From Echinometra lucunter (Eukaryota > Echinodermata > Echinoidea > Camarodonta > Echinometridae): a stretch of DNA of 64,000 bases. The stretch is from assembly GCA_029962745.1 (NCBI GenBank), contig CM057171.1:372750-436749 (forward strand). The letters are read 5' to 3'. Positions 13,432-42,821 of the stretch are shown in pieces. A program made the translations under genes and the position numbers. The notes below the pieces were generated by a model. The model was given only the letters and a program-made list of their open reading frames with translations, did not search any database and was not told the DNA's origin. Each line of letters begins with the position of its first letter. Within the stretch, counting starts at the first letter, position 1.

Positions 13432-14844
13432 TTACAGTGATACTTTGATGAAATACAACTTCTGGTGACAAGCAAAGGCGAGCAAGTCTGGGGTGAGGGG
13501 AACCAAGTAACACCATTTCCATGCCAGTGTCAGATTAAGTGCATTGAACTCAACTCTCTCCTTCAGGTTCAGACCATCAATGTCATAGAGCCTGATCACC
13601 ACTTTATCATTCTTATAATCAACACTCGCTACATACACCCTGTCCTGCTCGTCCACAGCAGCATACAGGTAGACATCGCTTGGAGCTTGTAGAGGTTTCC
13701 CAGCATTCCCATTCCTGTCGTAGACTGTCACAATGCTTGGCTCAGTGCAACAAGAACTTGTGATTATCAAACCGGCTTTGGTTGCAAATGCCTGCCTAGT
13801 GATTTGGTGTTTTGTTGGGACAGTGTGTTTGAGCGTGGTTCCCGTTCGATCATAGATGTAGACTTTCTTTTCACCGTTAGCTACAATGATTTCATCTGAT
13901 GGACTTTTGTTTAGTACGAAAACATATCCAGTATCTGTCACCTGGATGCTGGTTGATTTCTTGGAGCCATTGGGAGAATATATGTATGCTTCCGTGGTGC
14001 TACGCGTCGATACGAATAACGACCTGTCTTGTTGAAACACAAGATCACAACACCGCATGTCGCTTGGTATGTGTGTGTACTGCTGCTTATTACCCGCAGA
14101 ATCAATGATATCTATACCATGTGTAATCCAACCATATCCGATAGCCACACTGTCGTCAGAGTACTTGGTCATCCCACACATATAACTCCTTAGATCCACA
14201 CACTGAATGACTTGTAACTCTGGATCTGATTCTGAGATGCTCCCGAGATCAAGTCGAGTATCATCTATAGGCTCCTTCTGTGCTTTCTCTCTTATAACCA
14301 TAACCGCCGCAGAGCTGTGACCTGATTCAGTAGTCTCCTTCACCACGGCACCCTTTGCAGGCTCGAGATCTGGTTCTGTAATTTTCCCGAGATCAAGTCG
14401 AGTATCATCTGCAGGATTGAACTTATTCTTCTGTGCTTTCTTCGTTATGGCTGCTGCAGAAGTGTGATCAGTAGCCTCCTTCAGCATGTCTTTCAGTTCT
14501 TCACAAAGCAAGATATGAGCAGACAGACTGTCTGTCTCTAGACGACCCAGTCTGTCATTAGCTACCAGTGTCATTGAACTAAAAATACTCTTGATCTTCT
14601 GTCGATCTTTTGATTTCAAGACGTCGAAATCGTCATCAAAACTACGCTCTAGAGCATCGATTTGGCCGATGAGTTTTCGCTGATTTACTTCAAGTTGCTT
14701 GGCCTTGACGCTGTAGGCTTGGCTGACATCTTCTCGTAGTTTCTGTATGGCAGTATGTACCTCAAGGCGTTGTGCTTCCATATTCTGAATGTTTTTCTCC
14801 AGTTCTGATTTCTTGGCGGCACATTGCTGCACAAGGTCGTTTAC
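13432..14844 (-). CDS. TRIM-like gene A, exon 2: coiled coil + beta-propeller
   Basis: This 470-codon terminal exon opens at a TTTTTTCAG|GTAAACGAC acceptor (phase 0, matching ...QAE of exon 1) and ends at TAA (13434-13432). Residues 1-130 are heptad-rich and charged (coiled coil, begins VNDLVQQCAAKKSEL). About 130-215 is an acidic/polar linker with DDTRLDLG twice, 48 codons apart. About 215-470 is a repeat-built domain of beta-strand blades (AIGYG, DLVFQQDRSL, EIIVANGEKKVYIYD, IVTVYDRNGN, RVYVAS, VIRLYDIDG), resembling NHL/TRIM56-type propellers that bind substrate or RNA. The partner exon is 25807-26181+, across an 11-kb intron holding LINE-A. The frame is intact. Propeller loop patches differ sharply from genes B and C. 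Confidence 0.85.
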   Translation of the reverse strand, partial: VNDLVQQCAAKKSELEKNIQNMEAQRLEVHTAIQKLREDVSQAYSVKAKQLEVNQRKLIGQIDALERSFDDDFDVLKSKDRQKIKSIFSSMTLVANDRLGRLETDSLSAHILLCEELKDMLKEATDHTSAAAITKKAQKNKFNPADDTRLDLGKITEPDLEPAKGAVVKETTESGHSSAAVMVIREKAQKEPIDDTRLDLGSISESDPELQVIQCVDLRSYMCGMTKYSDDSVAIGYGWITHGIDIIDSAGNKQQYTHIPSDMRCCDLVFQQDRSLFVSTRSTTEAYIYSPNGSKKSTSIQVTDTGYVFVLNKSPSDEIIVANGEKKVYIYDRTGTTLKHTVPTKHQITRQAFATKAGLIITSSCCTEPSIVTVYDRNGNAGKPLQAPSDVYLYAAVDEQDRVYVASVDYKNDKVVIRLYDIDGLNLKERVEFNALNLTLAWKWCYLVPLTPDLLAFACHQKLYFIKVSL

Positions 14845-15381
14845 CTGAAAAAAATAAGCGTTAAAGAAAAAGAAATGAATAAAAGGAAGCTGCTTCAATA
14901 ATAATCTAATAACGATTGAACAGAAGTGTAACTGGATTTCATCGAATCTATGGGAGAAAATTACATGTACCGAAAGTATACGGTAATTTACTAAAGCACC
15001 TTATTATTTGAAAAACCCGATGATTATATTACGAGATAAAATATCAGGAGGAAAATGAGGTCTGCGCTTATAAGATTTGTTAATAATCGAAGGGTTTGTG
15101 TACATTTACTAAGTATTACTTGAATTTTTTGAAAATATGTGGTATTTAAAAGAAACCATTCATGAATTTTTATTTTTACACCATTCCTTTAAATAAAGGA
15201 TAGCTACGCCTATTGCTGTCTGCATGGTCCATATTATTTTGTACATTATTATTCCATTCTTTTACTTTCAGTTTCAGTTTCAGTTTTATTTTTTCTCATT
15301 TCCAACAAAACAGTAGACAAAATCCATCATAAATACAGTTATAACAATTGAAATGTAATAAAGAAACATGTAACACAATAT

Positions 15382-15426
<45 letters not shown>

Positions 15427-15994
15427 TCTAAATTATACATTTGAAACTTAATATGGATCATGAGATATTTGTGGCTGAAAATAACATGCTGGAAATGGAG
15501 AGGTCCACTGTGAAGCTGTGCTTGTAAGTCGTGGACCCCTCAAATCAAATTATTCATTAATATTAAATTACATAATTAAAATAATGATAGTGGCCAAAAG
15601 AGGGGAAGAAAAATGTGAAATAAACAATAACATGATGCATGAAATGAGTAATTTACGAAGAATAACAATGAGAGACGATGAGGAGAACATATCTGCATGT
15701 GGACTAAAATAAGAAAATGTTTCACAGGTGTTGTATAACGAATATGAAGTAAACGCGCAAAGGAAACGGATCAAAGTGTATGACTGGTTGAGAAGTGGTG
15801 ACGAGATCTTCGGATACCAACAATAATAGCAATGACAGTAATAATAGAGATAATAATGTTAATGATATTGTATATATAATATATGTATTGTATATATAAT
15901 ATATATATAATAATAGTAATCATGATACTAATAACAAAAATAATCATGATAATAGTGATAATATTGACAATAAAAGAAGGGACAACAAGGAGAG

Positions 15995-18900
15995 CTAGGT
16001 TTTATACGTAGCCAATAAAAATGTCTTAAGTTTTCTTTTGAAGACTGCGAGTGAGGGGGAGTTTTTCAAATCTATGCGCAAAGTATTCCAAAATTTAGGA
16101 CCTTCAAAAATGAATGTATTTTGTGCTGAAAGTGTTTTTAGTAAAGGTAAATGAAATTCTTCAGACTGTCTAGTGGGATATTTATGAATAGTTTGATTCT
16201 TCATAAACATGTCATGAAAAACTAAGGGAAGGGCACCAGAATTGAATTTATACATAAATTCTCCTAGATGAAACAAGTAGAGATCGTTTACTTTGAGAAT
16301 ATTATGTTCAAGGAAAAGTGGATCTGAGTGGGCACGAAACGGAGCATTGTAGATTATACGAATTACTTTTTTTTGTAACAATATAATTTTTTCTAACAGA
16401 GTTTGATGAGTGTTTCCCCAAAGCAAAAGTCCATAACTTAGGTAGGGTAAAACAAGAGAATAATAAAGAATAAGCAAAGATGGTTGTGGAAGATGTGATT
16501 TTAGTCTGTTAATGATACCAATATTTCGAGAGATTGTTTTGCAAATATTTTCGATATGTAATTTCCAGGAGAGCTTGCTATCAACCAAAACACCTAAAAA
16601 ATTTGTATGAGAAACCTGCTTAAGTGGGGTATTGTCAAACATAATTTGAGTCGGTAATGAAGCTAAGGAGTTACTAAATAATATGTAATTCGTCTTCAAA
16701 AGATTTAATGACAGTTTATTGGTTCTTATCCATTCTAAAACATTTTGCAACTCTGCATTGACGACATCAACAAGAACATTTGGATCTCTGTGTGAAAAAA
16801 ATAAGTTAGTGTCATCTGCAAATAAAATGAATGACAGTGATTTGGACGATTTATGAAAATCATTTATATAAAGAATAAACAACAAAGGGCCTAAAAGACT
16901 CCCTTGCGGAACACCACAAGTAATATTTCTAAAATCAGATTCTTGCTCATTTAAATAAACAAATTGTTTTCTGTTAGAGAGGTAACTCCTGAACCACTCC
17001 AAGGCCTTTCCACGGACACCGATATGATTGAGTTTATAAAGTAAAATGTCATGATTTATCGTATCGAAGGCCTTGGAGAAGTCCAGGAATATACCAACTG
17101 TGTGAGAAGAAGAGTCAATTGAATGGGCAACCTTTTCTACAAAAGTCATTAAAGCGTGAACAGTACTATGTTTCTCCCTAAAACCAAATTGGAAGTTTGA
17201 AAAGATATTATTTTCTTCAAGAAAGTTATCATTCGAGTGAACACTATTTTTTCTAAAATTTTGGAAAAAGAAGACAATAACGAGATTGGCCGATAGTTAC
17301 CTACTTCAAGTGCGTCACCCTTCTTAAATAATGGTATGACTTTAGCAAGTTTCATGGAATTAGGAAATTCACCATGCAGCAGTGATAAATTAAAGATATG
17401 GACCAATGGATCTGCAATGTAAGGAATAATGGCCTTTAAAATAACGTTACTGATTCCGTCAAAGCCGGAACTTTTTTTATTTTGTAAGTTGGAAACAATG
17501 TTTGTGACTTCTTGTCTATTCGTAGGAAAAAAGAAAATAGAACTTGGATTAGCAGGACCTAAAAAGTCAGTAAAACACCTGTCAGAAGGGGGAATATTTT
17601 TAGCCAGATCGTTACCAATTGAGGAAAAGTAATTATTGAAAATATTCGCTATATATTTTGGATCTTCAACAATTTCATTATTATTCCTGATTCTATTTAT
17701 TTCAGAAACTCCTTTAGTTAAGTTCATCGCCTGTTTGATGATTTTCCATGTGTTTTGGGTATCGTGTTTGAACATTTCCAAACGATTTACAAAATATTTT
17801 CTTTTTTCTAAACGAATGATATTGATTAATGTGTTTTTATAGGACGTATACTTAAATTTTGCCTTCTCAGTACCTTTTAATTTGTATTTATAAAAAAGAT
17901 TATTTTTTCGATTAATTGAGCGTAGAATAGATTTTGAAATCCAAGGAAGTTTGGGTGTTTTTTTATAATTTGTTTTGATTTTTTGTTTCGGCATAACTAT
18001 GTCCAGCTGATTGCTTAATATTTGGGAAAAAGCTTCATATGAATTATTTATGTTTTCATTTATATAAACACTCGACCAATCATAATTTTCCAAATTAATA
18101 CCAAGACGTGCCAATCTTTCGGCGTTAACTTTACGTCTGAATAGTGAGGAACTATTGGTATTTATAGGTTGTCCCAGTGGATAGTGCATTGCAGTAGGGT
18201 AGTGATCAGTAATGTCCGAAATTATTATATAAGAATCAGGATGTGGAATTACATTTGAAAATATATTATCAATTAAAGTAGCAGATGTATTTGAAACGCG
18301 CGTTGGTTTGGAAACTAGTGGCAGACAAGAGGCCGATAAAATCAACTCAAGAAGTTCTTGAGAAACATTGTTGAGTTCATGGTTCAATAAGTCTATATTA
18401 AAATCTCCCATCAGAAAAAAATCTTTATTGTCAAAATTAATATCTCTTAATAAATCTGAAAAATATTGTAAAAATTCTTGAGTACTAGAGCTAGGGGATC
18501 TATAAATAACACCGGCGATGATATTCTTATTTCCAGGAATCAAAATTTCAATGAAGAGGGATTCAATAATGTTGTTGCAAACAGAAATTTCATTCAAAAT
18601 AGTATAATTAAGTGATTTGCGAACGTAGAGAGCAACACCACCACCAACTTTATTTTTTCTATTTTTATTGATGAACTCATAATCCTTTATATGAAATGGG
18701 TGGTTTAAATCGTGATTTAACCAAGTTTCCGTAAGGCCGATCAGAGAAAGTGGGTTTGACATGGGCTTATCTATAAGTGAAAGAAGGTCATCAAAATGTC
18801 GATTCAAACTTCTGATATTTAGGTGAAGTAAGGAAAATGTATTTAATTCAAATTCTTTCAAGACACGGGAAAACTGACTGACGGTTATGTAATTAGTAAT

Positions 18901-19110
18901 TCCTCGTTGGGCTGGGTCATCGAAATCAAAATCAAACTCCAAGTTTACAGATGAAGAGTTCATGCTATCTCTGATAAGATTGTCATATAAATTAGTAGAG
19001 GTAAGAGAGGCATCATTAAATTGAATAGGTCGATGTAACTCGAAGAAATCGTCATCACTAAGCCTATGGAAAGGCAATGATTGTCTATCAAAGGAATCAG
19101 ACATCGTCAT
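15995..19110 (-). pseudogene. LINE-A ORF2: endonuclease-reverse transcriptase, one frameshift
   Basis: The 5' frame (19110-17149) begins MTMSDSFDRQSL and carries an AP-endonuclease-like domain (LLHLNIRSLN, LTETWL, GGGVALYV, LMGDFNIDLL, DITDHYP) and the start of the RT domain (NYRPISLLSS). It runs out of frame near 17160-17235. The second frame (17149-15995) continues with FLDFSKAFDTINHDILL, CGVPQGSLLGPLLF, the catalytic FADD box (DD codons at 16816-16811) and the C-terminal WNTLR..F motif. The two frames meet at one point with no loss of conserved blocks, so a single indel is likely. It encodes target-primed reverse transcription machinery, probably dead in cis. Confidence 0.8.
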
Positions 19111-19312
19111 AGATTAAAAAGTATTTTCTCATTACAGATATTTGGCGATTAAAAGAAATCATGTCTAAAATGGCGCTATCAGCAAGATATAGAGGATGTG
19201 GGGAAAGAACAACGTCCACATGAAGTAAGATTGGAGACGAGTAGATGGATAACAAATGCAAATGGAAGAAAGTGGTGATAAGGAACAAAAAACGGTTGGA
19301 GAAATGAACACA

Positions 19313-19384
19313 CGATGATGATGATGATGATGATGATGATGAAGATGATGATGATGATGAAGATAATGATGACGATGATGATGA
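19313..19384. repeat. (GAT)n microsatellite 5' of LINE-A ORF2
   Basis: Near-perfect GAT/ATC trinucleotide run about 200 bp upstream of the ORF2 start. LINE-B has a similar run (52691-52805) about 100 bp upstream of its ORF2. Confidence 0.9.
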
Positions 19385-19459
19385 ATAAGAAAGGAGATAC
19401 AAACACAGAGTCTCTGATGGCACAACAAACTTAGGGCAATCTAAAGGCTGGAACATCAT

Positions 19460-22028
19460 AGGAAAAAATAATCAGCATTAGAGCTAATAACAAAAACTTG
19501 TATATTGAGGAATTTTGATAGAATAGAGGTATAAATCATCGGATATACTTGTAACAAATTCATTCTAATGAGGAAAAAAATGGCAATATTTTCTACAAAG
19601 TAGCAAATACTACTATACTGATAAAACAACCCTTATTTAGATAACTTGGAAGATATTTCATTCGCACCACTAAGGACAAACGAAAAGGATAAACATACAA
19701 ACAGATTGAGGATGTATTCTTCATTCAAATAAGTTTAGGCGTACATGAACGTAAGTCAAAATAAAAAGCCAACTCCTCCCCTCCCCCCCCCCCCAAAAAA
19801 AGGAACACATAGGGCTATCCGCACGGAAAATATAGAAGTGTTACTTACAATACGTACACTGTGACCTTATAGAAAGAAACAATCATTTTGTAATGAACGA
19901 GTGCCAGAATAATCCAACATTTATTCGTGGCAAGTATTTTGTTTTGTGGGATAAACACGACTGTATGAACATGATAAGATTCTGGAATGTGATCGAAGTA
20001 AGCATTTTGTAATATAAGAAGACATGCGCTACTCAGTTATCATGACAGTGGATCAATGATAATCATTGCATATACAAAAAATCATTGTTGAGAATAAACG
20101 ATTGAAAAAAATAATAATTTGACGGCATTTGTGTTTAACCGAATTAAGAACTGTCCATCTGACTAAGCTGTTAAAATACATCTTCTCGATTCTAATCGTT
20201 GAAAAAGAAGAAAATTGAGTCAAAACAAATCAGCGTGACATAACTGCTTTACTAATGTTTTGTTCACATCAAGATAAAATTAGGTTTACTAAGAGTAGCC
20301 TGGGCCAGATATGTTTACCAGGCCAGCAGTATGAATGAAATGTATCCATAGAAACGATTTTACATTTGAAGGCACATGTGCTTTAAAGAAAAAATAAAAA
20401 ACTTCAGCAATAGGAATTTAATGAACCACTTTCGCAATGTGTTGATTTTCTTTTCTTTTCTTTTTTTACAAGTTTGATCAATGATCATCCACTCGACCGA
20501 CAAAACCCTTTCAAAATCCAAACGGTCCAAATGCAAACGCGGGCTCAAAAACTAGGTCAGGCAAACATTACGATTCACTCAACCCAGCAACAAACGGTGC
20601 ATGCAATGTGTATTATGTAAAGGATCTGCACAAGTTATATAACAAATAAAGATGTAAAAAAAAATAAATAAAAAAGAAGAACCGATCACAAGTACGAAAA
20701 GGTTCATTATCCATGTTCATTATCAGTTAATGTATGCAGGAATTCAGCATGTGCATTAATAAAAACTCAGCGGGAGAAATACTGCGATGACCAGATAACA
20801 CTGATCGATGTCAATGAAAAAAGCTATTATTTGATTGTAAAAAGTATATAAGACCCATAAACAGGTAAGTATGTTGTGCTAATACAGCTCAAATGAAAAT
20901 GATTTGAAGCTACCATACTGGATAATCCTTAACTTAAGCTGCACTACCATAAACTTAGTAAGATAATTGGTGGAAGCTTAATGCCGGGAAAACAAAATAT
21001 ACATTCGGAGCATATACTATTTTTGTACAGAGACGTTTTAGAGACAATATAATAAATGTGAACAATACTGATATAAGGCAGAAATCTAATCATCAATGAT
21101 AAAGGTTTTTTGACATCTGTATTATGCGTACTATTGAAACATCAGGTCAAACGAGATCATGTCAACTGATAATTCCTCAAGTGCAATATCATTTGCTTTA
21201 TTCTAAAGAATAAAACAAGTAATAATTCTTTGTTACATATTTCAAATTTTAAGTAAACATGATCAAGCAGTAAACATGTTTATGCTATAGTAGGAACCAA
21301 TTTACTATTATTTAGGCATGCAAGTGGAAAAATCTTATTACAAAATATCTGTTTTTAGATGGATGTATTATGGTCACTTTCCAAGTTATCTAGTTTTTAT
21401 GCAATATTTTGAGTTGTCAAAAACCTTGTGAAAAAAAGAATACTTGCGAAATACAAAATATGTTTGCGATAAATATCACAACACACTATTTGGTTTTGGT
21501 ATTATGAAAAGAAAATGCTTTTCAAAGATGAATTGTGGGACATAAAAATACCAAATATGCTCAACATGCTTAAGGAGACAAGTGGCAATACAAATCATGT
21601 TTAGCATTGAAAACAATGATATACCTGAAATCAGTCAGTGCATGTTTCTAAAGAGTATATTTTTAAATGAAAAAAAGGGCATTTTGATATAAAAATATGG
21701 AAGATATTCATTATCATTAACATGACTATCATGACAAAAGAGAAAAACAATTTTTTAATGGAATGTAGTTGCCTTACTCTGTGGACTGTTGATATAACTC
21801 AAGACACATTAAGTTTTAGGCATGGCAAATAAGCGCTGCTAAGAAAAAACAAATTGATTTTATCATTTCTCTGAAGTTAAAGGTTCAAAGACGAGTCATA
21901 ATCTTGTTGGAAGCCATATAACTCAGTATATCTATCTCTGCTATCTCGGCTCGTACACAGGATGAATGGGCTAAAGCAAAGATGATGTGGATCAAAATCA
22001 GCAAAGATTCTAAGCATTCCAGACTGCA
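19460..22028 (-). other. Non-coding spacer between LINE-A ORF2 and ORF1
   Basis: AT-rich, with no frame of note and no conserved motif. Contains a C run near 19785. CR1-like elements normally have ORF1 and ORF2 close together, so this 2.9-kb interval may hold a nested insertion or separate two different elements. Confidence 0.4.
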
Positions 22029-23880: not shown

Positions 23881-23888
23881 GTCATAGG

Positions 23889-25806: not shown

Positions 25807-26181
25807 CTCAGTCTGTAATTCCATCTCGAAGACTTCATGAGATTTTATCTTGTGATCACGATGACTGAGGATCACACACTTGAAACAGGCGTGCTTCTTA
25901 CAGCCCTCGCAGAACATGTCTTTGTTCTCTTGCTTGTGGATGGAGCACTTCTCAGAGGGATGGCCAATGCTTACGTTCCCCTCGATAATATCCTCAATGG
26001 ATACGATCTCATGACCCTCAAAAGCCACTGTCAGCTGCTTATGGCCGACATCACAATCAGAGCACATGTAGTAAGGGCAGGTTCTGCAGAATGAGACTGC
26101 ATCTCGGTGAAGTTTACAAGCAGTGCATTTTGGACGCCTCTCAAGGACCGCATTAACTCCACCACACTTGGCGTGGTAATC
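25807..26181 (-). CDS. TRIM-like gene A, exon 1 (partial): B-boxes, RING lost in gap
   Basis: The 3' 125 codons of exon 1 are open from the gap edge to a GTGAGG donor (25806). Visible are the linker Cys region, B-box 1 (CTACKLHRDAVSFC, then CSDCDVGHKQL) and a complete B-box 2 (CSIH..CEGC..CFKC..H). Relative to the other copies, B-box 1 is strongly changed after its fourth cysteine (PYYMCSDCDVGHK). The RING and start codon fall inside the 500-N gap. It ends ...MELQTE in phase 0, compatible with exon 2 at 14844. No disabling change is seen in the visible part. Confidence 0.8.
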
Positions 26182-26681
26182 NNNNNNNNNNNNNNNNNNN
26201 NNNNNNNNNNNNNNNNNNNNNNNNNNNNNNNNNNNNNNNNNNNNNNNNNNNNNNNNNNNNNNNNNNNNNNNNNNNNNNNNNNNNNNNNNNNNNNNNNNNN
26301 NNNNNNNNNNNNNNNNNNNNNNNNNNNNNNNNNNNNNNNNNNNNNNNNNNNNNNNNNNNNNNNNNNNNNNNNNNNNNNNNNNNNNNNNNNNNNNNNNNNN
26401 NNNNNNNNNNNNNNNNNNNNNNNNNNNNNNNNNNNNNNNNNNNNNNNNNNNNNNNNNNNNNNNNNNNNNNNNNNNNNNNNNNNNNNNNNNNNNNNNNNNN
26501 NNNNNNNNNNNNNNNNNNNNNNNNNNNNNNNNNNNNNNNNNNNNNNNNNNNNNNNNNNNNNNNNNNNNNNNNNNNNNNNNNNNNNNNNNNNNNNNNNNNN
26601 NNNNNNNNNNNNNNNNNNNNNNNNNNNNNNNNNNNNNNNNNNNNNNNNNNNNNNNNNNNNNNNNNNNNNNNNNNNNNNNNN
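26182..26681. other. Assembly gap, 500 N
   Basis: Exactly 500 N, a conventional placeholder. The left edge is inside gene A exon 1; the right edge is in the gene B 3' flank, about 160 bp from its stop codon. Frames called across N are meaningless. In the other units the corresponding distance is 6.4-9.9 kb. Confidence 0.98.
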
Positions 26682-26840: not shown

Positions 26841-28247
26841 TTACAGTGATACTTTGATGAAATACAACTTCTTCCAACAAGCAAAAGCGAGCAAGTGCGG
26901 AGAAAGGGAAACCAAGTAACAGCACTCATCCCTTAATGTCAGATTAAGTGCATTGAACTCAACTCTCTCCTTCAGGTTCAGACCATCAATATCATAGAGC
27001 CTGATCACCACCTTACCGTTCTCACAATCAACACCCGCTACATACACCCTGTCCTGCTCGTCCACAGCAGCATACAGGTAGACATCACTTGGAGCTTGTA
27101 GAGGCTTCCCAGCATTCCCATTCCTGTCGTAGACTGTCACAATGCTTGGTGTAATCCAACAAGAACTTGTGATTATCAAACCGGCTTTGGTTGCAGATGC
27201 CTGCCAAGTGACTTGGCGTTTTGTTGGGACAGTGTGTTTGAGTGTGGTTCCCGTTGGATCATAGATGTAGACTTTCTTTTCATCGTTAGCTACAATGATT
27301 TCATCTGATGGACTTTTGTTTAGTGTGCAATCATCTGCAGAACTTTTCACCTGGATGCTGGTTGATTTCTTGGAGCCATTGGGAGAATATATGTATGCTT
27401 CTGCGTAGCTACCCGTCGATACGCATAACGACCTGTCTTGTTGAAACACAAGATCATAACACTCCATGCCGCTTGGTATGTGTGTGTACTGCTGCTTATT
27501 ACCCGCAGAATCAATGATATCTATACCAAGTGGATAGTAACCATATCCGATTGCCACACTGTCATCAGAGTACCTGGTCATCCCACACATATCACTCCTT
27601 AGATCCACACACTGAATGACTTCTAACTCTGGATCTGATTCTGAGATGCTCCCGAGATCAAGTCGAGTATCATCTATAGGCTCCTTCTGTGCTTTCTCTC
27701 TTATAACCGCCGCAGAGCTGTGATCTGATTCAGTAGTCTCCTTCACCACGGCACTCTGTACAGGCTCGAGATCTGGTTCTGTAATTTTCCCGAGATCAAG
27801 TCGAGTATCATCTGCAGGATTGAACTTATTCTTCTGTGCTTTCTTCGTTATGGCTGCTGCAGAAGTGCGATCAGTAGCCTCCTTCAGCATGTCTTTCAGT
27901 TCCTCACAAAGCAAGATATGAGCAGACAGACTGTCTGTCTCTAGACGACCCAGTCTGTCATTAGCTACCAGTGTCATTGAACTACAAATACTCTTGATCT
28001 TCTGTCGATCTTTTGATTTCAAGACGTCGAAATCGTCATCGAAACTACACTCTAGAGCATCAATTTGGTCGATGAGTCTTCGCTGATTTTCTTCAAGTTG
28101 CTTGGCCTTGACGCTGTAGGCTTGGCTAACATCTTCCCGTAGTTTCTGTATGGCAGTATGTACCTCATGGCGTTGTGCTTCCATATTCTGAATGTTCTTC
28201 TCCAGTTCTGATTTCTTGGCGGCACATCGCTGCACAAGGTCGTTCAC
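26841..28247 (-). CDS. TRIM-like gene B, exon 2: coiled coil + beta-propeller
   Basis: This 468-codon exon opens at ATTTTTAG|GTGAACGAC (phase 0) and ends at TAA near 26841. The plan matches gene A: coiled coil about 1-130 (NDLVQRCAAKKSEL...), linker with two DDTRLDLG motifs, then six blade-like repeats. Joined to 34478-35113 it gives about 680 residues, a usual TRIM length. The coiled coil is almost identical to gene A, whereas propeller patches differ: YGYYPLGID for YGWITHGID, IPSGMECYDL for IPSDMRCCDL, and SSADDCTL in a third loop. All splice sites and frames are intact, making gene B the best candidate for a complete functional gene here. Confidence 0.88.
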   Translation of the reverse strand: MNDLVQRCAAKKSELEKNIQNMEAQRHEVHTAIQKLREDVSQAYSVKAKQLEENQRRLIDQIDALECSFDDDFDVLKSKDRQKIKSICSSMTLVANDRLGRLETDSLSAHILLCEELKDMLKEATDRTSAAAITKKAQKNKFNPADDTRLDLGKITEPDLEPVQSAVVKETTESDHSSAAVIREKAQKEPIDDTRLDLGSISESDPELEVIQCVDLRSDMCGMTRYSDDSVAIGYGYYPLGIDIIDSAGNKQQYTHIPSGMECYDLVFQQDRSLCVSTGSYAEAYIYSPNGSKKSTSIQVKSSADDCTLNKSPSDEIIVANDEKKVYIYDPTGTTLKHTVPTKRQVTWQASATKAGLIITSSCWITPSIVTVYDRNGNAGKPLQAPSDVYLYAAVDEQDRVYVAGVDCENGKVVIRLYDIDGLNLKERVEFNALNLTLRDECCYLVSLSPHLLAFACWKKLYFIKVSL

Positions 28248-28598: not shown

Positions 28599-31424
28599 GA
28601 TTTGATTTGATTTTTATTGTTTACTTCTGCAATTACATCATTCGTATATAATACATTTTCCATAACATAACAAACATAGTATATTGAGAACTTTTTTTTG
28701 GCATGAATCATAACTAAATGTACTAAAATTATCATTACAAACAAAACTGATCTCATACCAAATTAGTTAACATTTACAATTTGCAGGAGAAGGATTGTCA
28801 TCATAAGCAGATTGCTTGAAAAAAATGACAACCCCAGGTTAGAACTCATTGATTAATATAATACATTAATACAGCAGAATCGATAAACAGTACATTTCAT
28901 GAAAAACAGCAGTAATGTAATTTGAGCAATGAAGATGGAGATGATAAGGATGAAGATGATGGTGAAATGGTGAAGATGAAGGCGATGGAGAGGATGATGG
29001 TGATGATGCTTTAATGATGACACATCGACACAGAAATTTTACTTCAAATATTCTGATATCAACATAGATTTAACGTTTGCCTTAAATGAGTAAAGAGACG
29101 AGGATCTTTTTATAGATTCAGGTAGAGAGTTCCACAAATCAGGACCATGGTGTCTTATGGATCTCTGCGCAATAAGCAATTTGGGGTTGATTAAATGGAA
29201 ATTAGAAGAGTTCCGCGTAGGGTATGAATGGATAGATGTGTTCATAGTATAAAAATTGTGAAATGAAGGTGGGAGCATGTTATTTACGTATTTGAACATA
29301 AGCAGTAAGCTTTGAAATGAGTTTATGTCAAAAATAGTTAGAGTCTTTAGTTTATGGAATAATGGATTTGTGTGTGATAAATATTGCGAATTAGTGCAAA
29401 TTCGAATTGCTTTTTTCTGTAATAAGTATATTATATTAATTTTAGTTTTTGCACACGTTGCCCAAACTATATTGCAGTACGATATATACGGCAATATTAA
29501 TGAATTGTATAGTAGAACGAGTGTAGTATGAGGAATTATGTTTTTCATTTTGTAAAGTACACCTACGTTTCTGGAGATGTTAGTAGTTATACAACGTATA
29601 TGTTCATTCCAATTTAAATGTTCATCTATTGTGACACCTAAAAACTTTGTTTCTTTTTTCCTTTTGAGTGGAATATTATCTATGCTTATGTCGTATGGAA
29701 ACTCAGTAATATGTGAACTTGTATGCGTAAAATACATAAAGTTTGTTTTGTCTATATTAAGTGAGAGCCTATTACATTTAAACCATAAAGATAGTTTAGG
29801 TAATTCACGATTAAATGTATCTACTAAAGTTTCTAAGCTAGTGTTTGAACAAAAAATGTTTGTGTCATCGGCAAATAATACAAATGATAATAAAGGCGTT
29901 ACAGTAGTCAAATCATTAATATATATAAGGAAAAGTAAGGGGCCAAGGATCGATCCTTGTGGAACTCCGCATTTTATTGACTGAAAGTTAGAAGAAATAT
30001 TGTTGTGAGTGACATATTGTTTTCTATCAGACAAATAACTCTCAAACCATGATAGTGCGATTCCCCGAATTCCATAATTTTCAAGTTTTTTAAGTAAAAT
30101 CTGGTGGTCAAGAGTGTCGAATGCTTTGCTTAGGTCCATGAATACTCCTATTATGTGTTCTTTATTTGTCATTGCATTTGTAATTTTATCGTATATTTGT
30201 ATTAAAGCCTGATCAGTTGAATGCCCTTTCCTGAATCCATATTGGTTTGGATTTAGAAACTGAAAAGTATCTAGGAACTTATAAAGTCTTTTGTAAATAA
30301 TCTTCTCAAGTACTTTGGATATGCTGGGGAGAATAGAAATTGGCCTATAATTTGTTATTTCGTGTGGATTGTCTTTTTTTAAAACAGGATTTACCTTTGC
30401 AATTTTTAGGGAATCTGGACATTTACCGGTGCTGATCGACAGATTAAAATATGACACAATGGAGAGACAATATAATGTATGATCTGCTTAAGAAGGAAAG
30501 TACTAATTCTATCATATCCCTGTGATTTGCTGGATTTGAGATTTTTTGTTATTTCAATTATTTCCTGAACATTTGTGGGGTTAAAGAATAGGGAAGAATT
30601 GATGGGTGTGGGAAGAAATTTTGCAAAACTTTGGTTTGGTCTGGCAAGGTTGTTAGCCAAAGAGGGTCCTATGTTAACGAAAAAGGAATTAAAGGTATCA
30701 GCTACATCATCTGAATTTATTGCAGCAGCATGAACTGTGAAATTGTCTTTAGGTAATACTTTGGGTTTCTTGCCAATCAAATCATTGATTATCTCCCATG
30801 TGGCTTTCATGTTTGATTTAACTTTGTTAAGTTTCTGGGAATAAAACAATTTGCGAGAGGCCCGAATTATATTGGTTAGTCTATTTCTATAAGTTTTATA
30901 TTTATTTTTGTTTTGAATAGAGGGGTTCTTTAAAAATGTCTTGTATAGTTTATTTCGGGTGTGTATGGATCGTAGAATAGCTTGAGTGATCCATGGCATT
31001 TTTGCTTTTCTTTTTTTGATAGGTGATAGAGGAAAATTTTTATCGTAATATTTCTGCAATTTTTGGTTAAAATTTGTGTAAGCAATATCTGAATTTGACT
31101 CATTAAATACATCTAACCATTCCTCAATCGCAAGATCACTTTTAAACGATTCAATATTGATTGGTGTTTCTTTACTATACATTATAGATTTAGGTGAATT
31201 TTCTTTTGAAATATCATTATCACATAATAAAAAAACCGGTAAATGATCAGCTATATCAGATATTATTAATCCGCTGGAAGTATCTCTGTTTAGTATGTTT
31301 GAAAATATGTTGTCGATAAGTGTTGATGAATGGCTATCAATTCTGGTCGGTTGATCTATGTGGGGATAATAACCAAATGAATGCATAGTGTGTAGGAATA
31401 AATCGTTTTCATTATTTTGGGATA
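28599..31424 (-). mobile_element. LINE-C, 5'-truncated CR1/Jockey-type element in gene B intron
   Basis: The 3' tail is a tandem of ATCAAA-like units (plus strand TTGATTTGATTTGATTTT). ORF2 covers the RT and C-terminal region plus part of the endonuclease (LIDNIF, DIADHLP) in two frames, 31515-30406 and 30457-29039. They are separated by a missing A near 30443 relative to LINE-B. The FADD codons lie at about 29869-29864. Homology to LINE-B stops abruptly at 31424, the usual 5' truncation. The sequence is almost identical to LINE-B over the shared 2.8 kb, so both are recent copies of one lineage. Inserted in sense orientation with the host gene. Confidence 0.85.
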
Positions 31425-31426
31425 AC

Positions 31427-31968
31427 AAAAAAGGAGAATGAAACCCTGGAGGAAAATCTTTTATTGGAAAGATGGGATAGATAGAAGCAATTATTGCGAA
31501 AACAAGTTCCATCAAAATCGGTTACGAACTGAGAAATTTATGAAAGTTTGAAATGTTTCAATTTACTCACTATGCATTCAAATTGGCAACGTTGCTTCAA
31601 ACTGGCATGTTTAGAAAGACAACTCTCCATATGTTTTGTACACAAAATTTCATATAATTATTTCCCATTATCTCTAAGAGTGCAGCTCGTCTCCTTCTTA
31701 GCTCAAGGCATATCATAAGAAAATGTATTTGACATATTAATCTTGAGTTCACAAATAGACAGGCACCATATTTAGAGATAATGGAGAAAATATGAAATTT
31801 AGTGCACGAAACGTATATAGCTGAAGCACCATTGCCAATTTGAAAATCATCATAGAAAGTAGCTTTCTCATTTCGTAACAAAGTTTGATGGATTTTTTTC
31901 CCAAATCGCTTCTCTCTATCCCCTCCTTTTATCAAAACGGATATTTCCCCAGGGCTTCATTCTCTTTT
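31427..31968. repeat. Large inverted repeat in gene B intron
   Basis: The left arm (about 31427-31690) is the reverse complement of the right arm (about 31765-31968), with a spacer of about 75 bp. For example, AAGGAGAATGAAACCCTGG pairs with CCAGGGCTTCATTCTCTTTT, and AGAGATAATGG at 31774 pairs with CCATTATCTCT at 31668. The right arm also matches window positions 1-260. The left arm starts exactly at the 5' truncation point of LINE-C. Confidence 0.7.
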
Positions 31969-34150: not shown

Positions 34151-34477
34151 TTAAGCTGTGAGCCAGTGAGCGAGCAAGCCTTCCGGGTTTTTCCTTTATT
34201 TTCATTCCTCTTTTTCTTTTCGCTTTCTATTTCTTTTACAATGTTATTTCTTCTTTGTAAAGTGGGGGTATATTTTTACACGCCATCCTCCCCTCTCGAA
34301 AAAAATGGAATTTATTCTATAAGATCTTTTTTGGAAAAGTTGGGTTTCATTGTCCCAAAAACACCCTGTATAGACCCTATACGAAGATAATTTATTTGTA
34401 ATTCTTCATCTTTTATACTTGGAATTGAGAGAGTTAAACCGATAAAAAAAATTATGACAATTGTAAAGGACGCTCAC

Positions 34478-35113
34478 CTCAGCCTGTAATTCCATCTCGA
34501 AGTCTTCATGAGATATTATCTTGTGATCACGATGACTGAGGATCACACACTTGAAACAGGCGTGTATCTTACATCCCTCGCAGAACATATCTTTGTTCTC
34601 TTGTTTATGGATGGAGCACTTCTCGGAGGGATGGCCAATGCTAACATTCCCCTCCATGATATCCTCTATGGATACGATCTCATGACCTTTAAAGACTACC
34701 GTGAGATGTTGATGACAATCAAGGCATTTATCACACATGTAGTTCTGGCATGTTTTGCAGAATGAAACGGCATCTTTTTGACGTTCACACGCAGTGCATT
34801 TTGGACGCCTCTCAAGGACTGCATTAACTCCACCACACTTGGCGTGATAGTCGTCTACGAGTTCATTGACCACCGCACTGGAGGGGAGATCGTCGACACG
34901 GTTCGGAGACAATTTCGTGGTCTTCCTGCAGAGCGGACAGACCATGTGATCAAGATCCTGGTGTGACAGGTCATATTTCTTGAGACACTTCCTACAGAAG
35001 GTATGTTGGCATGAAGTCAGCAGGGTTGGCTCGTCGAAGATATCAAGACAAAGTGGACATGTCAGGTTCTGTTCAGAGCTTGGAGCTGTCTCTTCTTCAA
35101 TTTTCTCAGCCAT
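34478..35113 (-). CDS. TRIM-like gene B, exon 1: RING + two B-boxes
   Basis: A 212-codon exon, ATG at 35113 (TATCAATGG context), ending ...LQAE at a GTGAGC donor in phase 0. The RING ligands match gene D (C19, C22, C35, H37, C40, C43, C59, C62). B-box 1 is at about 106-144 (CTACERQKDAVSFC..CDKC), and B-box 2 at about 166-202 (CSIHKQENKDMFC..HACFKC..H..H). It splices over a 6.2-kb intron (LINE-C, inverted repeat, TTAA MITE) to 28247. Role: E3 ubiquitin ligase with a propeller recognition domain, probably in innate immunity or development; the pathway is not deducible here. Confidence 0.9.
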
Positions 35114-35157
35114 TGATACAGTCAAGTTACCGATTTCTTGGCAGTTATAAACAACAG

Positions 35158-35545
35158 TACCTGCTCAAATTAAAATGCGTTTTACTTTCCTCATTCCGGG
35201 TAGAAGTCAGTGTATGAAGCTGGAAACTTTGTAATCTCCTGTCTTAAAAACAACCTCAGCTAGTGTAAGCCAGCTGTCTCAACTGTTCTGAAATGCCCTT
35301 TTTCGTTGAAAATGTGCTTTACTGTATTGAATGCTTCGAAGAGCACTGTATTTCAACTGTTCACCCTGTAAATTTGAAGTGGTAAAATATCACACTTGGT
35401 TTTGAGCGTATACGTCGATATATTATGCATTGATTGTGTTGTGAGACCATGAACTGAAGTGGGTTTTCCCCACGTACCTTTGACCTCAAAGACGAGAATG
35501 ATATTGTCGTGTGATTGTATACAGAGGGCGATATACACATTCATG
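35158..35545 (-). promoter_or_regulatory. Possible 5' UTR exon and splice sites of gene B
   Basis: Minus strand: candidate non-coding exon ending at 35478 with donor CAAAG|GTACGT, conserved in genes C and D, and acceptor TTTGAGCAG near 35159 ahead of the ATG exon. The CAG|GTATGAG donor of gene D's extra mini-exon is changed to CCGGAATGAG here and in gene C, so that exon is unlikely to be used in this copy. Confidence 0.3.
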
Positions 35546-36229: not shown

Positions 36230-36268
<39 letters not shown>

Positions 36269-37270
36269 GGGGGGGGAGAGGAGAGGGGTAACCAAAGAGA
36301 GAAATAGAAGAAAGACGAAGAGGAGGAAAAGAACATACATGTTGATACATTCATTGAGAGTTATTCAAAAGAAGAAGAGAGAGAAGGAGAGGGATAAGAA
36401 AAGAGAGATATGAAATAAAGAAGAGGTGGAAGAGAGCCACATAATACATAATTATAATGATGATAGATTCATTGCGAGTCATGTAAAGTAAGAGAGAGCA
36501 GAAGAGGGGTAACAAGGGAGAAAAGAAGAAAGGGAGAGGGGTAAGAAAAGAGAGAATTAGAAGAGGAAGAGGAGGAGAGCATAATCCATTTTACATTCAT
36601 TGAGAGTCAAGTAAACTTAAGAGAGAAAAGAAGAGATCAAACGGAGAAGGGTAACCAAAAGACGAAGAGCTGGAAAAGAATATGCATATTCATACATTCA
36701 TTGAGAGTGTAAAACAAGTAGAGAGAAAGGGAGAGGGGTAACAAAAGAGCAAAATGGAAGAGAGAGAGGAAGAGGAGGGGAGCATAATACATTTGGATAC
36801 ATTCATTGAGAGTGTAAAACAAGTAGAGAGAAAGGGAGAGGGATAACAAAACAGAGAAATGGAATAAAGACGAAGAGGAGGAAAAGAACATACATGTTGA
36901 TACATTCATTGAGAGTTATTCAAAACAAGAAGAGAGAAAGATAGAGGGGTAAAAAAAGAGAAAAGGAAAAGAGGGAGAGGGGTAAGACAAGAGAGAAATA
37001 GAAGTATAGGAGAGAAGCATAATACGTGTAATGTTGATATATTCATTGCGAGTCATGTAAAGTAAGAGAGAACACGAGAGGGGTAACAAGGGAGGAAAGA
37101 AGAAAAGGAGGGAGGTAAGAAAAGAGAGAAATAGAAGAGGAAGAGGAAGGGAGTACAATGCATGTTGATATATTTAATGAGAGTCAAGTAAACTAAAGAG
37201 AGAAAAGAAGAGATGAAAAGGAGAGGGGTAACAAGAGAGAGAAACATAAGAGGAGAGGGAGCATAATACA
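35640..37270. repeat. Purine-rich minisatellite array upstream of gene B
   Basis: Dozens of imperfect units with purine tracts and the CATGTTGATACATTCATTGA spacer, homologous to 4030-4400 plus 8030-9180. It includes a (GA)n stretch at about 36210-36267. Predicted peptides across it are low complexity and not genes. Confidence 0.85.
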
Positions 37271-39462
37271 TGTTGATACAGTGTACATGGATTGAAAGTC
37301 ATATAAAATCAATAACCTCCAAGATAATGTTAGGAGTTTGTATCCAGTGAAAACAGGCCTTGTAGGTTTCTAAAGTGTACCATGTTTGTTGTGAGGAAAG
37401 GTGGAGTTTTAGGCAAAGGTAGAAATAATATCTGAACTTTCACTTTCATGTATGTTCATTTTGAAGGATATGAAAGAAAAAAAAAACCGTGCCCTGAAAA
37501 GGCTTGCTCTTCTGATACATTCATACTGAAAATTTGATGACAAAAAATAATAACTACAAAATTTCAAACAGATTTAATCACAAGGCTAGTGAAGTTAATT
37601 GATTTACTGAAAGTCTTTGTGATTATGGTGAAAGTTGCTATCATCTGATCATTTGGAGACAAAGACGTCGGTCATGCACTCCCATCCTGTCAAAATAGTG
37701 ACGGTTACACCACCCGTGACTCTATATGCCAATACCCAACAAAGTTATAACTGATAATTTTTTGCTTGTTTGCTCTTCTCTATATTGCCTTCTTTAATTA
37801 AAATATTCTATGTAATATTTCCCGCTGTCACTCATTCTCTCTCTCGTTTATTTTCCTCCCGTCATCTCTCAACTCGCTGACGAAGTCATTCTTTTCTCCG
37901 CCTTCAATTTCAACAGACATCACAAACGCTTCTGTTTTTATTGAAATCTATCAGTCTTTATTTTTCCTTATCAGCCCTTGTGAACATCATGTGACATTCA
38001 GAACTTCCTTAACGTTTTGAAAATTTTGAACATTCTTGATATTTCTGAAAAGTAACCTTAAAAAACCCACCCCCAACAAACAACTAAAAAAAAACCCCAC
38101 AGAGAAACCAAAAACAACAAATAAGACTAAACAAAACAAAATTCCACAGCTTTTTCCGGAGTCTTCTTTATACAAGCAAGCAAGCAAGCAAGCAAGCCCC
38201 CCTCCCCCATCCCCGGGCGTCTTTATTTCTTTACTTCCTTTTCTACTTCTAAATTCCAAGGGTTACAAAAACTCGTGTATGTGTGTGGGGAGGGGAGGGA
38301 TTCCCTGTCCCCCACCTTCCCGAAGTCCGCTCATGTTTATGTCTAGCTGTTCTTTTGTACTTCATGAATTGATCACAAGGATAAATGCGATTAAGTATAA
38401 AATCTATAGAATGTACATTGGAAGGAATATCATATACATACAGCTGGTGCCCCCTTTAAAAGAATACATACATGTAACACCCGGGGACTTGCACCGAAAA
38501 AAATTAATGTCTAGAAATATTTGAACTATCACGACAAAATTCTCATGAATTAGTGTGAATCAAATGAGCTTATCAATCTGTTTAAAAATTTGATTTGCAT
38601 ATCGTTAGGGCTAAAGGCATGAAATTTGAGATGAGTTTCAGTCTCATCATTTCTCACCACAAGCTGTTCATATTTGATTTTTTTTTTCGGTTGGGAATTT
38701 CAATGTACGGCACAAAGATAACTGATAGGCGGTTGACATAAGCCATGTACATTTTCAAGCAATGTTGTATATAGGGTCAGAAATAAGTGAATAAAAGTGT
38801 CGTGTCAATGATACCAAGCTGCCATGTCCGTTGCACTCTTTTTCTCGCTCAGTGGCAAATAAATGTCAAGTCTAATGGTTATGTATATACAGTATGTTAA
38901 GAGTATGATTATATGCTTCTGATAATACCTAGTTAATCCGCAAAATTTAGACATGACAGTTTGCTCGTTATTACTGTTTTTAGTGATAATATAGTGTTTT
39001 TGTGATTCATTGCATAATCACAATGATTATATAATAAGGCATAAAATTTTACAGCTCTGTACATACAAGGAACTGGAAGTACATGATATATTTACATACA
39101 TATAAACACATGATAGACAGATAAATGGACCACGCTGGTCAATTGGATGATATAAGAAGAAAGCTTTCTTTTACGTGGCATTGCGAGAGTCAGTATGTGC
39201 ATGTACGTCTAACATAGACATAACATCTACAGAGCAAAGAATAATTTACATGTTTATATATCATGTATATACATCATGTTGAAGGTATGATAATGTGCTT
39301 CTCTACCAGCCTAAGTTAAACCTATTAATCTGGCAAATTTAGACATGACACTTTGCTCGCTTTGTCTAGTTTTAAGGCATGGCATAAACACAATGAACAA
39401 TGAAGATACAATAAGTCATAAAACGTTTAAAGAGTGTATTTATCAGGAAAGGAATATACATA

Positions 39463-39697
39463 CTCTTAAAACAAATCAGTTAAAAATGACTAGATGAAAG
39501 GGTCAGCTGGGTGCAACTATAATACTAGTCACTTTTTTTTCCTATATTTTATTCATTTGTGAATATTTTCTAGGCGTATTTTGACTAGAACTCAGTCATT
39601 TCTGACTAGAACATAGTAACTTTTGTGACTAGATAATAATAATTGCACCCAGCTGACCCATAATCTAGTCATTTTAACTATTTTGTTTTTAGAGTGT
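39463..39697. mobile_element. MITE copy (TA-type), paralogue of 11394-11628
   Basis: Same TIRs and inner arms as the 11394 copy; the left terminus has lost CA (ACATACTCTTAAAAC). Same paralogous position, so inherited with the duplication. Confidence 0.7.
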
Positions 39698-39863
39698 ATG
39701 TTCATATACATAAACACATCATGACAGACAGATTCATGGACCGTGCTGGTCAACTCTTTACGTGGCATTAGAGAGTCGGTATATATACTTCTATCATAAT
39801 ACTGGAGGGGGGGGGGGAGGGAATCTTCTTCTCTTTTTCTTGATGAGTACAGTCCACCATCTG

Positions 39864-40026
39864 GTGCCCGTTGCATAAAACTTTTGCCAGACTTTTTTTT
39901 CTGGCAAAAAAAAGTCTGGCAAATTTTTATGTAATGGAACACTATGGCAATTTTTTTTTTTTTTTTCCGTAGTTTCCTCAAATTTGCCATAAAAAAACTC
40001 TGGCAAAAGTTTTATGCAACGGGCCC
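39864..40026. mobile_element. MITE copy (CTG-type), paralogue of 11789-11960
   Basis: CTG flanks at 39861-39863 and 40027-40029. TIRs GTGCCCGTTGCATAAAAC / GTTTTATGCAACGGGCCC. Shorter T run in the middle than the 11789 copy. Confidence 0.72.
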
Positions 40027-40109
40027 CTGGTGTATTCTCGTACTGGTTTGGCTGGCTGGTGCAGTGTATATACAGTGCCACATAAAAAAAACTACATGAT
40101 AACTATGTG

Positions 40110-40240
40110 CAGCTAAAAACAACGGTAACCCCTTTTACCGGAGCTGGATTTCCTGTACCTCCTGCCTAAAGGAGATGGCAGAGGTACAGTTCACAAGATC
40201 TCCAGGAAGCGAGTTCCAAAGAGGAATATGCAAGGGCTTA
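40110..40240 (-). pseudogene. Relic of a LINE ORF2 C-terminus (copy)
   Basis: Paralogue of 12060-12190, with the same LWNSLPGDLVN-like minus-strand frame. Inherited with the flank duplication. Confidence 0.45.
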
Positions 40241-41534
40241 TGACAACAGCCTGTTCCCCGACTCCCTGATTTCCGCTCATGTTTAAAAAAATGTTCATTT
40301 AAAACAAAAATGTTAATGTTCGGATTTTTTAGCTGATTTTTTTTTTACTTCATGATTTGATCACAATGAATTATACATGTGGAGTATATGGAATACCATA
40401 CATATATACATACAGCTGATGGTGCTCCCTTAAAAACACATACATCAGAGCTGACAACTTTCATGAAACGGTCCCCCGGGGACTTCTCCCGAAAAATCAA
40501 TGTCCATTTGCTAACAATCATAAAATTGCTATATGTCTAGAAATATTTGAACTACTACGACAAATTGTCATGAATCAAATGAGCTTATCAAGCTGTTTAC
40601 TAATTTGATTTGCATATCGTTAGGGCTGAAGGCATGAAATTTGTGATCAGCTTTATTCTCATCACTTCTCACAACAAGCTTTTCATCTTTGATTTTTAGG
40701 GCTCACGGAAAGGATGATTTTGTTCGGAACCCCCCTCCCACTTTTGTTCGTAATTTAGGATCAATCATAGTCTCATCATTTTCTCACAAGATTTTATTAT
40801 TTTTTTTTTGGGGGGGGGATTTCAATGTACGGAACAAAGATAACTGATAGGCCATTGCATATTTTCAAGAATATAGGGTTTGAAATAAGTGAATAAAAGT
40901 GTCGTGTCAATGATACCAAGCTGTCATGTCCGTTGCACTATTTTTTCTCGCTCAGTGACACATAAATGTCAAGTCTAATAGTTATGTATATACAGTACGT
41001 TTAGAGTATTATAATATGCTTCTGGTAATACCTAGTTAATCCCCCAAATTTAGACATGACAGTTTCCTCGCTATGACTAGTTTTAGCGATAAGTGTCTTT
41101 TGTGATTCATGGCATAATCACAATGAGGAACATACAATAAGGCATAGAACCTTTACAGCTCCAGTGTACTTATAAAGAAAGGAATATGATATATTTACAT
41201 ACATATAAACACAATGATAGACAGATCTATAGACCGTGCAGGTCAATTTGATGATATAAACAGAAAGTTATCTCTTTTGGCATTGGGAGAGTGAGTACAT
41301 ACTTCTAACATAGACATAAAATAAACAGAGCAAAGAATAATTTACATGTTTCTAGTGAGTAAAACGGTACACATACAATCAGGCATTCGATATTATCAAG
41401 GGAGTGAGCAGTTTCTACGCTACACGATAAACAAGGGAATATGAAGCAAAGGTCCGTATGGAGTAGATATATAGAGCAGAGATGGAGATAGCTTTTACAA
41501 ATCACACATAATGGTGATATAGAGGCACTTTGGA

Positions 41535-42821
41535 TTACAGTGATACTTTGATGAAATACAACTTCTTATAGCAAGCAAAAGCAAGCAAGTTTCGAGAGAG
41601 GGAAACCAAGTAACACCACTTATCCCTTAATGTTAGATTAAGTGCATTGAACTCAACTCTCTCCTTCAGGTTAAGACCATCAATGTCATAGAGCCTGATC
41701 ACCACTTTATCATTCTTACGATCAACACTCGCTACATACACCCTGTCCTGTTCGTCCACAACAGCATACAGGTTGACACCGCTCATTGCGCTTGGAGCTT
41801 GTAGAGGCTTCCCAGCATTCCCATTCCTGTCGTAGACTGTCACAATGCTTGGTTCACTGTCCAAAGAATTCGTGATTATCAAACCGGCTTTGGTTGCAGA
41901 TGCCTGCCAAGCGACTTGGTGTTTTGTTGGGACAGTGTGTTTGAGCGTGGTTCCTGTTGGATCATAGATGTAGACTTTCTTTTTATTGTTAGCTACAATG
42001 ATTTCATCTGATGGACTTATGTTTAGTCTGAGAACATAATCAGGATAATATGTACTTGTTACCTGGATGCTGGTTGATTTCTTGGAGCCATTGGGAGAAT
42101 ATATGTATGCTTCTGTGTTGCTACGCGTCGATACGCATAACGACCTGTCTTGTTGAAACACAAGATCACGACACACCATGCTGCTTGGTATGTGTGTGTA
42201 CTGCTGCTTATTACCAGCAGAATCAATGATATCTATACCATGTGCATAGTGACCATATCCAATAGCCACACTGTCATCAGAGTACTTGGTCATCCCCCAC
42301 ATATAATTCCTTAGATCCACACACTGAATGACTTGTAACTCTGGATCTGATTCTGAGATGCTCCCAAGATCAAGTCGAGTATCATCTGCAGGCGTGAACT
42401 TGTTCTTCTGTGCTTTCTTCGTTATGGCTGCTGCAGAAGTGTGATCAGTAGCCTCCTTCAGCATGTCTTTCAGTTCCTCACAAAGCAAGATATGAGCAGA
42501 CAGACTGTCTGTCTCTAGACGACCCAGTCTGTCATTAGCTACCAGTGTCATTGAACTACAAATACTCTTAATCTTCTGTCGATCTTTTGATTTCAAGACG
42601 TCGAAATCGTCATCGGAACTACGCTCTAGAGCATCAATTTGGCCGATAAGTCTTCGCTGATTTTCTTCAAGTTGCTTGGCCTTGACGCTGTAGGCTTGGC
42701 TGACATCTTCCCGTAGTTTCTGTATGGCAATATGTACCTCATGGCGTTGTGCTTCCATATTCTGAATGTTCTTCTCCAGTTCTGACTTCTTAGCGGCACA
42801 TCGCTGCATAAGGTCGTTCAC
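41535..42821 (-). CDS. TRIM-like gene C, exon 2: shortened linker, coiled coil + propeller
   Basis: A 428-codon exon opening at TTTCTTAG|GTGAACGAC (phase 0) and ending at TAA near 41535. Coiled coil about 1-130. The linker holds only one DDTRLDLG motif because a 48-codon block present in genes A and B is missing exactly between the two direct repeats. The propeller follows with gene-specific patches (YGHYAHGID, IPSSMVCRDL, TSTYYPDYVLRL and an extra SAMSG near the fourth blade). The frame is intact despite the frameshifts in its exon 1 at 44352-44985. The intron is 1.5 kb, the shortest of the array and free of LINEs. Confidence 0.86.
   Translation of the reverse strand: MNDLMQRCAAKKSELEKNIQNMEAQRHEVHIAIQKLREDVSQAYSVKAKQLEENQRRLIGQIDALERSSDDDFDVLKSKDRQKIKSICSSMTLVANDRLGRLETDSLSAHILLCEELKDMLKEATDHTSAAAITKKAQKNKFTPADDTRLDLGSISESDPELQVIQCVDLRNYMWGMTKYSDDSVAIGYGHYAHGIDIIDSAGNKQQYTHIPSSMVCRDLVFQQDRSLCVSTRSNTEAYIYSPNGSKKSTSIQVTSTYYPDYVLRLNISPSDEIIVANNKKKVYIYDPTGTTLKHTVPTKHQVAWQASATKAGLIITNSLDSEPSIVTVYDRNGNAGKPLQAPSAMSGVNLYAVVDEQDRVYVASVDRKNDKVVIRLYDIDGLNLKERVEFNALNLTLRDKWCYLVSLSRNLLAFACYKKLYFIKVSL

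Follow-up and report, generated by a model that had tools for sequence, protein, structure and literature searches.

Tandem TRIM-NHL-type genes of the sea urchin Echinometra lucunter with diversifying selection on one face of the propeller

The window analysed here is a stretch of 64,000 nucleotides from the sea urchin Echinometra lucunter (contig CM057171.1, positions 372,750 to 436,749; C21:372750-436749 in the 743 Mb genome searched). It carries a tandem family of TRIM-like genes, all on the minus strand, whose C-terminal propeller bears strong diversifying selection in the loops of one face. Exon 1 of these genes encodes a RING finger and B-boxes, exon 2 a coiled coil, a linker and a propeller, and the splice sites match in phase 0 (donor GAG/GTGAG, acceptor AG/GTRAACGAC, the slash marking the junction). 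An earlier note, made from the letters of the window, had placed three second exons here, and all three were recovered: W1 at 13432..14844 (coiled coil 14440-14844, linker, predicted six-bladed propeller 13435-14217), W2 at 26841..28247 (coiled coil 27843-28247, linker, propeller 26844-27626), which serves as the reference for residue numbering and for the structure model, and W3 at 41535..42821 (coiled coil 42417-42821, short linker, propeller 41538-42338). A plus-strand reading was rejected, as the plus-strand translations of the three exons are full of stops.

Beyond that note, first exons are also found in the window. That of the W2 gene (34478..35113) holds an ATG, the RING and the B-boxes and ends in a phase 0 donor, GAG/GTGAGC. 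For the W1 gene the 3' part with the B-box lies at 25807..26181, while the RING is not visible and would fall in a gap at 26182-26681, one of three runs of exactly 500 N in the window (the others at 45423-45922 and 56001-56500) that are probably assembly gaps. In the W3 gene the RING/B-box similarity of the first exon (44352..44985) is spread over three frames, that is, by two frameshifts, and given these the gene may be broken or mis-assembled. The first exon of a fourth gene is located at 2892..3524; the corresponding second exon falls immediately beyond the left edge of the window (C21:370859-372127, locus L029). LINE-like (long interspersed nuclear element) reverse-transcriptase elements are present on the minus strand at 28820-31521, within the intron of the W2 gene, and at 49447-52623, and are 99-100% identical in the compared stretches; a further, different one occupies 15995-19113 in the intron of the W1 gene.

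All three parts of the tripartite motif are represented in this family. The Pfam search of window positions 34409-35164 detected a RING finger (PF13445, E 2.7e-10, other models also being above cut-off), followed by B-box zinc fingers in two stretches (PF00643, E 3.1e-09). The coiled coil after them corresponds to a helix (201-305) in the model of a Strongylocentrotus purpuratus relative, P0003 (mean predicted local distance difference test score, pLDDT, 69), and is supported by the match of the family profile to TRIM28 structures (best E 1.5e-17). According to structural modelling, the C-terminal domain is a divergent six-bladed NHL-type propeller; the full-length P0003 model is of low confidence outside the coiled coil and propeller, and its fold comparison again gave NHL. 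In line with an NHL-type propeller in place of B30.2 (PRY/SPRY), the Pfam search returned no SPRY match, and a filamin domain was seen neither there nor in the P0003 model. The best Pfam propeller match, to the THOC3 propeller (E 1.8e-4), was rejected at 21 bits against a cut-off of 305.

A genome search with W1 yielded at least 118 exon-level matches, pieces of one exon being counted separately. Among the matches listed, 26 near copies form clade A, and 23 of them are open throughout; three were dropped because of in-frame stops (L026, L038) or a contig end (L039). The linker contains an extra repeat of about 40 residues in W1 and W2 and lacks it in W3; across clade A, 10/23 genes have the long form with the duplicated motif and 13/23 the short one. 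Clade B is a second cluster (C21:13.67-13.96 Mb, 65-69% identical), in which 8 of 12 fetched loci were fitted, L042 and L048 having one stop and L054 and L091 being broken. More distant families occur on C12, C18, C4 and C19, among others. The C12 family (L094-L104, C12:2.0-2.43 Mb) is a TRIM-NHL-like cluster with the same hypervariable face; 11 loci were fetched and 10 entered the analysis of the ratio of nonsynonymous to synonymous rates (dN/dS, or omega), L104 being 98% identical to L102. L050 and L051 were used in the joint alignment and tree only, and L052, L053, L055, L056 and L077-L090 were kept out of the counts. At least 153 RING/B-box exon matches are found genome-wide, many of which belong to additional tandem clusters (C4, C6, C7, C10, C17, C20 and C21).

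The closest named proteins are those of Strongylocentrotus and Lytechinus, with 60-76% identity. The cross-species set contains 115 proteins from three other urchins, taken from the best 120 of 252 after leaving out 5 unnamed records, so that clade B relatives in those species may be missing. In the midpoint-rooted tree built with them, the 23 clade-A genes form one clade (support 1.0) and 60 S. purpuratus proteins another (support 0.77), which argues for lineage-specific expansion (or concerted evolution).

The earlier note had described near-identical coiled coils and blade strands interrupted by clusters of replaced codons, and the alignment of the 23 intact near copies has this appearance: the coiled coil is almost invariant, the strands are conserved, and about 12 short patches are hypervariable, including those quoted there (for example YG-WITH/YYPL/HYAH-GID and LAWKWC/LRDECC/LRDKWC). 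These patches were tested with our own codon-model program (GY94-type, F3x4; not PAML), using the tree inferred with the codon model of IQ-TREE, its branch lengths included, with one scale factor free, after gappy columns had been taken out. In clade A, omega is 1.06 under M0, and M8 is preferred to M8a with twice the log-likelihood difference (2dlnL) at 667, with omega 8.0 at 10.6% of codons and 39/422 codons at P>0.95, 35 of them in the propeller. The null models first reached the limit of the scale grid, which was then widened for the single-change models only, giving 661. With double and triple changes within a codon allowed, 2dlnL is 465 with 37 sites, a value that may be somewhat too high since the grid was left unwidened. 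With separate trees for 10 segments it is 335 (omega 6.1, 31 sites, 29 shared). The excess of amino acid change is thus far beyond chance in these codon models. The RING exon served as control, using 19 genes: the best 20 of the at least 153 matches were taken, and from a total of 22 first exons three were dropped, L058 (stop), that of W3 (frameshifted) and that of W1 (partial). It gave omega 0.26 and an M8-M8a difference of 2.7.

When the 35 selected propeller sites are placed on the W2 structure model, 32 lie in the loops of face 1, the top face, none in those of face 2 and 3 in strands, and the patches repeat at the same phase in every blade. This agrees with the earlier suggestion that they map to one face, and the scatter through the propeller core that would have spoken against it is not seen. 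Each of the 12 loops of this face holds selected sites. They are loop 1 with its edge (27585..27602, residues 216-221), loop 2 (27528..27542, 236-240), loop 3 (27456..27488, 254-264, the patch itself at 260-264), loop 4 (27402..27416, 278-282), loop 5 with its edge (27324..27350, 300-308, length-variable among copies), loop 6 (27276..27287, 321-324), loop 7 (27204..27224, 342-348), loop 8 (27144..27164, 362-368), loop 11 (26922..26957, 431-442, patch 437-441) and loop 12 (26871..26876, 458-459), each with a selected patch, and loops 9 (27081..27095, 385-389) and 10 (27015..27026, 408-411), with one selected site each. Strong diversifying selection thus acts on sites in all 12 loops of one propeller face. 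Conservation prevails on the other face and in the strands, as well as in the coiled coil and the RING exon.

To guard against circularity, the sites taken from clade A were examined in other groups. Clade B favours M8 over M8a with 2dlnL 101 (104 with the wider scale grid) and has 18 sites at P>0.95, 17 of which could be mapped to W2; 11 of these are among the 34 mapped clade-A propeller sites, over 259 positions (Fisher 2.9e-7). Its dN/dS is 3.46 at clade-A columns vs 0.63 at other propeller columns. The C12 family gives 2dlnL 256 (omega 6.3) and dN/dS of 2.55 vs 0.83, at 26-28% identity to W1, where the alignment is less certain; of the 30 sites selected in this family, 16 coincide with clade-A sites and most of the remainder are adjacent to one. 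Diversifying selection, as proposed from the eye alignment, therefore holds also in clades that did not define the patches. The three other urchins provide protein variability only, which by itself gives no dN/dS. Mean entropy at clade-A columns is 2.39, 1.97 and 1.72 bits in S. purpuratus, Lytechinus pictus and Lytechinus variegatus, and 25, 25 and 22 clade-A sites, respectively, are among their 35 most variable columns, with the other face supplying 2/35 in each Lytechinus set. In the same order, top loops average 1.68, 1.29 and 1.15 bits and the other face 0.38, 0.27 and 0.28 bits (p 3e-12, 3e-9 and 7e-8).

Several codons with more than one change had also been remarked upon, and this is borne out: of 6196 codon pairs that differ at the 35 selected propeller codons, 2453 do so at two bases and 520 at three, whereas for the remaining propeller codons the counts are 485 and 10 of 7048. 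Heterozygosity at selected codons is 0.44 at each of positions 1 and 2 and 0.19 at position 3, the latter against 0.05 elsewhere, as a locally raised mutation rate might leave. A hot spot, however, would raise synonymous and nonsynonymous rates alike, and in clade A the selected codons have a synonymous rate of 1.32 and a nonsynonymous rate of 9.4, vs 0.90 and 0.51, respectively, for the remaining propeller codons; clade B has synonymous rates of 1.29 (selected) and 1.23 (other), and the C12 family of 1.61 and 0.91. The rates thus speak against a mutational hot spot.

Exchange between copies also leaves traces. W3 and L024 (C763:4309-5730) share one clear tract, with 222 polymorphic sites identical over residues 249-468 (0/300 permutations); their coiled coil and linker type differ despite the shared propeller from residue 249, and judging from the sequences the tract looks like a recent conversion-like or unequal exchange. 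L027 and L028 differ at 26/1701 bases, 13 of them within 31 codons (258-288). A search of the 23 genes for a donor of this L028 stretch gave no single candidate: W3 and L024 differ from it by one base at codons 258-268 but by 7 bases over 258-288. A test of the pairwise homoplasy index (PHI) type gave p 0.021 (100-base window), 0.022 (third positions) and, in a 30-base window confounded by multi-base codon changes, <0.001. A globally significant tract was nonetheless found in just 1/253 pairs (W3/L024). Patch sharing between genes does not decay with distance (mean correlation 0.12-0.17, lags 1-5), so that linkage between patches gains no support from it. Sequence is thus exchanged between copies and patches can travel with it, yet this leaves the one-sided pattern unexplained.

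We consider it probable that these genes form a tandem, lineage-specific TRIM-NHL-type family with a variable ligand-binding face, each paralog binding a different or shifting target, most likely from a parasite or virus. The variable propeller face would be the ligand-binding surface and the coiled-coil dimer would display two such faces; the target would be met in the cytosol, to which the RING/B-box architecture is the sole pointer, and the constant RING would mark it or its surroundings with ubiquitin. Duplication, selected substitution and occasional exchange between paralogs may supply a germ-line repertoire. The earlier note had likened the patches to the recognition surface of immune TRIM families. 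Positive selection on one face stands, and it is concentrated in the putative recognition loops, as looked for in a TRIM of immune recognition; immune function and ligand are what we infer from it. More tentatively, and with somewhat less than an even chance, the family may constitute a germline repertoire of cytosolic propeller receptors, in which several TRIM-NHL clades expanded independently, with the whole top face, which in other proteins serves to bind RNA, turned into a variable recognition surface on a constant ubiquitin-ligase chassis, and with patchwise exchange between paralogs adding to it.

Several observations weigh against the probable reading, that of a TRIM-NHL-type family with a variable ligand-binding face. 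No Pfam NHL repeat was found in any of the three second exons (E<=1), and the propeller is therefore filed by fold as NHL-like only; moreover, the top Foldseek hit by E-value is a WD40 propeller (Tup1), the NHL domain of Brat coming third. Four of the 39 selected sites are outside the propeller (residues 7, 31, 60 and 143), and 4/17 mapped clade-B sites are in strands. With multinucleotide changes, clade B falls to 2dlnL 43 and only 7 sites above 0.95. For the RING exon, M8 and M7 differ by 11.1, 7% of codons being assigned omega 1.8 and a single site exceeding 0.95; the exon is conserved overall, with at most a weak signal of selection. Sites were compared among paralogs of one genome, where small-contig copies may be alleles, and among the four first exons in the window one is frameshifted (W3) and one is partly in a gap (W1). 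Finally, TRIM45 and TRIM71 genes are reported among those raised in ultraviolet B (UVB)-treated phagocytes (PMC13043383), a response to UVB damage and not to a microbe; the main text of that paper gives no TRIM locus numbers that could be matched.

It is possible, if rather unlikely, that RNA is the ligand of the top face, as it is for Brat, Lin41 and Mei-P26, and that the family diversified into many RNA specificities for viral or transposon sensing or control. Net charge of the top loops is positive in 18/23 paralogs, the other face always being negative (-4 to -8), and arginine is enriched at selected sites (11.2% of residues vs 2.4% elsewhere in the propeller). However, top-loop charge ranges from -3 to +8, being negative in 4/23 and zero in 1/23, and acidic residues are enriched as well (D 8.8% vs 6.9%, E 7.2% vs 2.7%). 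The charge pattern leaves RNA possible without demanding it. We regard as improbable that the surface recognises variable self components (allorecognition, or co-evolution with gametes or an endogenous substrate) in place of pathogens: diversifying selection alone leaves the partner unnamed, and echinoderms are known to have self-recognition proteins that evolve fast, bindin among them (PMC4063459), but a large tandem repertoire whose RING is constant and whose surface is variable resembles fish finTRIM, proposed for diverse ligands (PMC2657112). Very improbable, lastly, is that the patches are hypermutable or swapped by gene conversion under relaxed constraint without selection for amino acid change, since local hypermutation and pure conversion were judged insufficient by the codon-pair, tract and rate comparisons, the signal survives local trees and multinucleotide changes, and conversion alone is not expected to spare one whole face.

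By analogy, the nearest design is finTRIM of teleost fish, a large TRIM expansion with positively selected variable loops in the recognition domain, where selection was assessed by comparable site models (PMC2657112); the domain there is B30.2 (PRY/SPRY), whereas here it is an NHL-type propeller with all 12 loops of one face hit. In TRIM5alpha, too, the recognition domain contains hypervariable patches under positive selection (PMC2657112), but its fold is B30.2 and the comparison is one of primate species instead of tandem copies. TRIM-NHL proteins (Brat, Mei-P26, TRIM2, TRIM3, TRIM71) combine the tripartite motif or parts of it with a six-bladed NHL propeller. Their genes are few and mostly developmental. 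Several have a filamin domain, which was not seen in the urchin family; the latter also yields no Pfam NHL repeat and has a hypervariable top face. Binding in TRIM-NHL proteins takes place at the top face (PMC9070667, PMC9634614). TRIM56 differs in being a single human gene. Fungal NLRs of the HET-D/HET-E type differ in carrying repeat propellers within NLR proteins. Their diversity arises by repeat shuffling. The likeness lies in their variable propellers, which there act in non-self recognition (PMC12222747, PMC4986451).

A survey of TRIM genes (PMC2533329) distinguishes a conserved group 1, whose members differ in their C-terminal domain, from species-specific SPRY TRIMs, absent from the invertebrates examined there; by our reading NHL types belong in group 1, and the sole invertebrate expansion noted is that of worm and fly filamin-type genes. 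Within the open-access literature, searched by title and start of abstract (most subscription papers and all bioRxiv falling outside this scope), none of the papers listed dealt with selection on the TRIM-NHL propellers of echinoderms. Here the fast-evolving part, a putative recognition domain, is an NHL-type propeller, as indicated by dN/dS for three clades within a single genome and, at the level of protein variability, for three more urchin species. The 35 positions on one surface are directly testable for ligand binding, in animals that possess very large innate gene families.

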